From: Thermoleophilia bacterium
Lineage (GTDB): Bacteria > Actinomycetota > Thermoleophilia > Miltoncostaeales > Miltoncostaeaceae
Reading direction: 5' to 3'
DNA: 33,376 nucleotides
Assembly (NCBI GenBank): GCA_016780995.1
Contig: JADHKZ010000008.1
Span: 1-33,376 of the forward strand
The position numbers were made by a program, and so were the translations under genes. Below are positions 30,587 to 32,211 of the stretch, piece by piece (the first letter of the stretch is position 1; each line of letters begins with the position of its first letter). Under the pieces are notes generated by a model that was not told where the DNA came from, did not search any database, and worked only from the letters and a program-made list of their open reading frames with translations.

Positions 30587-30597
30587 TTACGTATGAT
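30567..30597 (+). promoter_or_regulatory. promoter before the repeat-protein gene
   Basis: TTGCAC at 30567-30572 and TATGAT at 30592-30597 are 19 bases apart, a little long. The region overlaps the rsgA stop. It would give a leader of about 55 bases ending in AGAGG before the ATG at 30659. Confidence 0.45.
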
Positions 30598-30658
30598 GCA
30601 AAGCGTCGCCCACAAGGGCGCCCGAATCCCCAACCGCGACGCCGCGCAGAGGTATGAG

Positions 30659-31084
30659 ATGAGCACCAAGAAGACCGGCTGGGAGGCCCTCGACAAGTGG
30701 GTCGGCGACAGCGCCGACGCCGCAAAGGACGTGGGCTCCGCCACGGTCACCGCCGGTAAGACCGGCTGGGAGGCCTTGGACAAGTGGGTGGGCGACAGCG
30801 CCGGCGCCGCCAAGGATGTCGGATCCGCCACGGTCACCGCCGGCAAGACCGGCTGGGAGGCCCTCGACAACTGGGTGAGCGACAGCGCCTCGGCCGTGAA
30901 GAAGGAGGGCGAGGCCACGGTCACCGCCGGCAAGACCGGCTGGGAGGCCCTCGACAAGTGGGTTGGCCCCGATGGCGCGGCCACCGAGCCCGGTGCCACC
31001 GGCAGCAGCGCACCCTCCGGGTCGGGTGCGGCGTCCGGCGGCGGGTTCATGGGATGGCTCAAGCGCCTCTTCGGCGGCAAGTAG
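30659..31084 (+). CDS. Trp-rich 29-residue tandem repeat protein, unknown family
   Basis: A 141-residue cytoplasmic-type protein (no signal peptide). After M-S-T-K it has three full 29-residue units and one partial unit, each opening with K-T-G-W-E-A-L-D-K-W-V and continuing through A-A-K-D-V-G-S-A-T-V-T-A-G. Each unit has two Trp on an amphipathic helix. A low-complexity Gly/Ser/Ala linker leads to the C-terminal F-M-G-W-L-K-R-L-F-G-G-K, which looks like a membrane-binding amphipathic helix. I chose the ATG at 30659 because AGAGG lies 6 bases upstream; an ATG at 30593 falls inside the -10 box. I do not recognise the family. The pattern recalls LEA-like or apolipoprotein-like surface-binding proteins. 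Confidence 0.8.
   Translation: MSTKKTGWEALDKWVGDSADAAKDVGSATVTAGKTGWEALDKWVGDSAGAAKDVGSATVTAGKTGWEALDNWVSDSASAVKKEGEATVTAGKTGWEALDKWVGPDGAATEPGATGSSAPSGSGAASGGGFMGWLKRLFGGK
30671..30967 (+). repeat. 87-bp tandem repeat, 3.4 copies
   Basis: Units start at 30671, 30758, 30845 and 30932, exactly 87 bases (29 codons) apart. Units 1 and 2 are nearly identical; unit 3 is more diverged in its second half; unit 4 stops after 12 codons. The period stays in frame. Confidence 0.95.

Positions 31085-31137: not shown

Positions 31138-32211
<1,074 letters not shown>

Follow-up and report, generated by a model that had tools for sequence, protein, structure and literature searches.

The noncatalytic C-terminal region of proteobacterial RNase E is disordered and carries an amphipathic membrane helix along with short motifs on which folded partners dock (PMC4435900, PMC11964227). 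CsoS2 and the pyrenoid linkers EPYC1 and CsLinker are disordered too, and in them a short motif, repeated in variable number, offers a folded partner many binding sites (PMC10484944, PMC11570498). Here we examined a gene on the plus strand of a 33,376-nt stretch of DNA from a Thermoleophilia bacterium of the family Miltoncostaeaceae (contig JADHKZ010000008.1, positions 1 to 33,376; the whole stretch analyzed is hereafter the window). Its product resembles the RNase E C-terminal region in combining a predicted disordered chain, an amphipathic, putatively membrane-binding helix, and short motifs. However, it is without a catalytic domain, it repeats a single motif 2 to 14 times instead of carrying several different ones, its tail lies at the very C-terminus, and there is no similarity outside this tail. 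Compared by description, it is like CsoS2, EPYC1, and CsLinker in having one short motif in variable number on a disordered chain, but it would use a membrane anchor in place of a shell or a free condensate, and BMC shell proteins were absent from the genomes tested. As in MinD, which has FLKRLFGG there, the C-terminus is predicted to form an amphipathic helix; yet the repeat protein has no ATPase domain and only the short tail is alike, a likeness that is probably due to convergence.

The original prediction was of an unknown Trp-rich repeat protein, to be given up on a match to a known family; Pfam (best E 0.065, 13.6 bits against a cut-off of 29), NCBIfam (best E 0.65), PHROGs (best E 0.022), and a profile search of PDB sequences (best E 4) gave none, and no paper on the motif string turned up in a literature search. 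A bacteriocin was considered and rejected, as the NCBIfam leaderless-bacteriocin match (E 0.65) spans only the tail and lies far under the cut-off. The protein does show what marks a multivalent short-motif scaffold—i.e., a conserved motif repeated in predicted disordered linkers—although such a scaffold is defined by how it works and not by shared ancestry. We filed it with neither the RNase E nor the CsoS2/pyrenoid linker families, as it has no catalytic domain, no BMC protein was found in the genomes tested, and there is no detectable family match.

The whole gene (30659..31084; 141 aa, ATG start, TAG stop) encodes what we call the GWEALDKWV-repeat protein; its open reading frame comprises motifs, linkers, and a tail only, with no RNase E catalytic domain. 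The motif occurs four times in the form TGWEALD[K/N]WV at a strict 29-residue spacing, as read from the sequence and the family alignment: TGWEALDKWVG at residues 6-16 (30674..30706), 35-45 (30761..30793), and 93-103 (30935..30967), and TGWEALDNWVS at residues 64-74 (30848..30880). There follow a Gly/Ala/Ser/Pro linker (30968..31036), predicted to be disordered from its composition and from a pLDDT <50 at residues 106-127, and a C-terminal amphipathic tail, GGGFMGWLKRLFGGK, at residues 127-141 (31037..31081), for which sequence, lipid index, and AlphaFold suggest a role in membrane targeting. Tandem Repeats Finder described the DNA array as having a period of 87 bp, 3.4 copies, 86% matches, and no indels, with a score of 433 that far exceeds those of all other tandem arrays in the window. 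The repeats had been proposed to be exact, in frame, and 87 bp long; the register and the spacing (87 + 87 nt) hold, but the exactness does not, with DNA copies 2 and 3 being 88% and 81% identical to copy 1 over 144 nt. At the protein level, the 29-residue units with GWEALDKWV were found as described: their motifs start at residues 6, 35, 64, and 93, and the one at 64 has N for K (GWEALDNWV). The FMGWLKRLF end is likewise there, and the sequence shows no sign of a signal peptide. The repeat observation in the window is thus confirmed as real. Long minus-strand frames also cross the repeat gene; such shadow frames are frequent in G+C-rich DNA.

We then analyzed the occurrence of the protein across genomes. 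Among 41 genomes searched (the window's own and 40 relatives), 21 matched, every one of them in the window's family. Using a profile built from 20 members for a class-wide search, homologues were found in 34 of 42 Miltoncostaeaceae genomes, spanning 12 genera, while 0 of 357 other Thermoleophilia genomes had one; a 396-genome sample of the phylum likewise gave no match outside the family. None of the eight negative family genomes is a demonstrated loss, because either the contig ends in rsgA, the upstream neighbor, or just inside the repeat gene, or the orthologous region was not found: the contig stops in rsgA in G010 and G017 and inside the repeat gene in G137, G116 yielded no more than a different, rsgA-like gene, and the rsgA search gave no match in G011, G147, G165, and G173. 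Contigs often stop inside the gene (G016, G019, G021, G061, G072, G120, G124, G132, G137, and G142), so the repeats break short-read assemblies and copy numbers there are lower bounds. Three records (L036, L044, and L035), titled Bifidobacterium breve (two MAGs) or Acidobacteria bacterium, carry the repeat protein and its gene order at ~75-95% protein identity, and their names look wrong. The actinobacterial lineage carrying the repeat protein is poorly known. A viral origin was rejected, since no relative turned up in the viral contigs searched and it is the chromosomal place that is conserved instead.

A comparison of copy number between relatives had been proposed at the outset as a check, and we found 2 to 9 motifs per protein in 20 full-length members (only two in member L048) and 14 in G041, a complete single-contig genome of 3.4 Mb. 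The linkers (36% Ala, 23% Gly, 10% Pro, and 9% Ser) differ in both sequence and length, and the repeat period ranges from 22 to 43 aa across the family. In 99 motif copies taken from 20 proteins, T, G, W, E, L, and V were invariant, with no exchange among I, L, F, and M at W, L, or V; the second W was retained in 97 of the 99, and H or Y occupies its position in several genera. The frame, whose lack of conservation in close relatives had been named as grounds for abandoning the prediction, is strongly conserved between species (motif pN 0.062, pS 0.356). Between copies within single proteins, pS was 0.27 with only slight amino-acid change; this is nearly the between-species level, so the sameness of the copies for the most part does not reflect recent duplication. 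These substitution patterns indicate that the motif is under purifying selection. Two further elements were noted outside the repeats. Most members outside the window's genus start with a conserved element, approximately F-x-PP-x-x-G-[GA]-[AD], while members of the window's genus are without it, and the last motif and the tail of L047 and L109 (genus g22) are separated by ~50 residues that are charged and look like a coiled coil.

In contrast to the motif, the tail has drifted between species (pN 0.33, pS 0.42), with variants such as FMGWLKRLF, FWDKLKAFF, LVAALKRLF, and FMAALKRFF, but its positive charge and amphipathicity are kept, and its lipid-binding index stays at 1.0-1.7 over windows of 18 residues. 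The threshold of this index is 0.68 (PMC3189734), and both it and AlphaFold are weak predictors for disordered chains. In a positional orthologue located between rsgA and nudix/ASCH genes (G168/L105), a transmembrane helix replaces the tail, with a mean hydropathy of 3.27 over 19 residues in G168. This anchor swap, seen in one genus, is strong evidence that the tail's job is anchoring. Similar tails were found elsewhere: the E. coli MinD C-terminus, translated here, reads KKGFLKRLFGG; a Burkholderiaceae RNase E (L053) contains TGGFMGWLKRLFGG, which is nearly identical to the tail; and a Chromatiales 62-residue frame (L054:5256-5444, MTANKMPEDSVLRRHYETHLKMM...), probably a further small protein whose membrane anchor arose by convergence, ends in RGGFMGWLKRLFGG. 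As none of these proteins otherwise resembles the repeat family, the tail is best seen as a recurrent kind of membrane anchor. Taken with the steady lipid index under drift and the transmembrane replacement, the sequence of the tail makes its predicted binding to membrane, which had been raised as a possibility, well supported. Since a signal peptide is lacking, the repeats would face the cytoplasm.

This difference in constraint is our main argument: a tail that drifts would meet lipid, which tolerates drift, while a frozen motif would meet a protein surface. We consider it probable, if well short of settled, that the repeat protein is a cytoplasmic, intrinsically disordered, membrane-tethered multivalent scaffold that docks a folded partner. 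The C-terminal 12-15 residues would lie on the inner membrane, folded into an amphipathic, positively charged helix, and from there 2-14 copies of TGWE[AS]L[DE]KWVG, each with the capacity to fold into a short helix, would extend on flexible Ala/Gly/Pro/Ser linkers. Judging from the freezing of the motif, every copy may dock the same folded partner, and many weak contacts per membrane-bound chain might then concentrate or cluster that partner to a degree tuned by copy number. The docking partner should be a protein that the family conserves; there is no hint that a neighboring gene encodes it.

AlphaFold, run on the window protein with a 20-member alignment, gave a mean pLDDT of 52 and a pTM of 0.20, with helices at residues 7-24, 36-50, 65-81, 94-102, and 130-139; confidence was good only at the tail (pLDDT 85, residues 131-140), and there was no confident packing of motif on motif. 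The model agrees better with short helices set apart along a disordered chain than with a stacked repeat domain. The stacked amphipathic helices on a membrane originally envisaged are therefore disfavored by the variable Ala/Gly/Pro/Ser linkers, the low confidence (pLDDT 52, pTM 0.20), and the neutral to acidic motifs, which instead point to a flexible chain with short, separate docking motifs. A close relative of that idea is that the motifs, like the tail, lie as helices on the membrane surface, with the whole chain coating the membrane. The motif has a hydrophobic moment of ~0.6 and two tryptophans, a residue that favors membrane interfaces, and the tail would hold the chain at the membrane; however, the charge of the motif is 0 or -1, its lipid index is mostly 0.2-0.6 as against 1.0-1.7 in the tail, its second W gives way to H or Y in several genera, and it is frozen, unlike the putatively lipid-binding tail. 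We regard such a coat as improbable. Within the repeat region the index did not exceed 0.54 in the window protein, while windows above 0.68 were found in other members (L031, 0.91; L045, 1.04).

A further question is whether the motifs bind each other, their tryptophan faces packing within or between chains to yield a membrane-bound homopolymer or condensate with no separate partner. The motif pattern was absent from any other gene in 16 genus and 12 family genomes searched, which rejects a second motif-bearing protein in those genomes and means that the receptor must be another thing, or the motif itself. Self-association would suit a motif that is short, amphipathic, repeated, lineage-private, and confined to the repeat gene, and variable copy number would suit a sticker-and-spacer polymer. 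On the other hand, hydrophobic packing should tolerate exchange among I, L, F, and M, of which the 99 copies hold no case at W, L, or V; the structure prediction shows no confident motif packing (pTM 0.20); and a two-copy member such as L048 would make a poor polymer. We therefore judge self-association unlikely, yet somewhat less so than a membrane coat, and retain docking of a folded partner by a tethered scaffold as the preferred reading.

Another source of a partner would be the genes on either side, with the motifs helping a neighbor's product by binding the ribosome GTPase RsgA (upstream) or fructose-bisphosphate aldolase (downstream). The repeat gene is the immediate downstream neighbor of rsgA in every assembly that covers the region, and in the window's genus a class I fructose-bisphosphate aldolase gene (fba, 31138-32211) follows 53 bp away, with no plus-strand terminator found between the two. 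However, nudix or ASCH-domain genes, not fba, follow the repeat gene in other genera of the family. The aldolase is thus a variable neighbor, which argues against an aldolase-specific role, and an aldolase scaffold as a general role was rejected because the adjacency is not conserved beyond the genus. Moreover, the pyrE-rsgA block is conserved as a whole, so synteny alone may explain why the gene stays with rsgA, and the repeat gene has promoter-like and ribosome binding sites of its own. The ribosome binding site AGAGGTA (30648..30654) precedes the ATG and is kept in all 14 aligned genus members, bearing out the good ribosome site that had been noted. The claim of an own promoter fared less evenly: a -10-like element (TATGAT, 30592..30597, plus strand) is kept as TATGAT or TATGCT in the 14 aligned members, but a sigma-70 consensus scan found no promoter, so the claim is carried by conservation. 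With these points on both sides, a helper of a neighboring product seems very unlikely. Downstream of the -10-like element and ahead of the ribosome site, the leader also contains a hairpin-like CCC-N4-GGGC (30607-30620; same place in L031-L044, L010, and L014), which is kept in nearly all 14 aligned members of the genus while the loop bases vary.

We also considered known cellular structures that a membrane-tethered scaffold might serve. A storage granule had been suggested, but a PHA granule is unlikely, as PhaC (PF07167) had no match in ten family genomes; on the same ground, a PHA granule protein of the phasin or PhaM kind was rejected. Binding to the nucleoid, likewise raised at the outset, is not suggested by repeats that are neutral to acidic and accompanied by a membrane tail. 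BMC shell proteins (PF00936) also had no match in ten family genomes, and a BMC cargo or linker protein was rejected accordingly. Finally, a stand-in for SepF as Z-ring tether was rejected, since SepF scored above cut-off in all 16 genomes tested, with and without the repeat protein. A second, weaker SepF-like gene was observed in 4 of the 10 family genomes tested (G003, G008, G018, and G024), and the six genomes of other families had one SepF each.

More tentatively, and below even odds in our estimate, the protein may be a lineage-private inner-membrane organizer, a stand-alone bacterial scaffold in which a MinD-like tail and up to 14 invariant motifs cluster a partner, valence evolves by gain and loss of repeats, and the motif-receptor pair is one that has not been described. 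If so, the family would offer a natural valence experiment, with a frozen motif, free linkers, 2-14 copies, and an amphipathic or transmembrane anchor. A motif-receptor pair would then have been kept throughout one bacterial family while being absent from the rest of the class as sampled, and it would represent a way for bacteria without BMC shells to gather proteins at the membrane.
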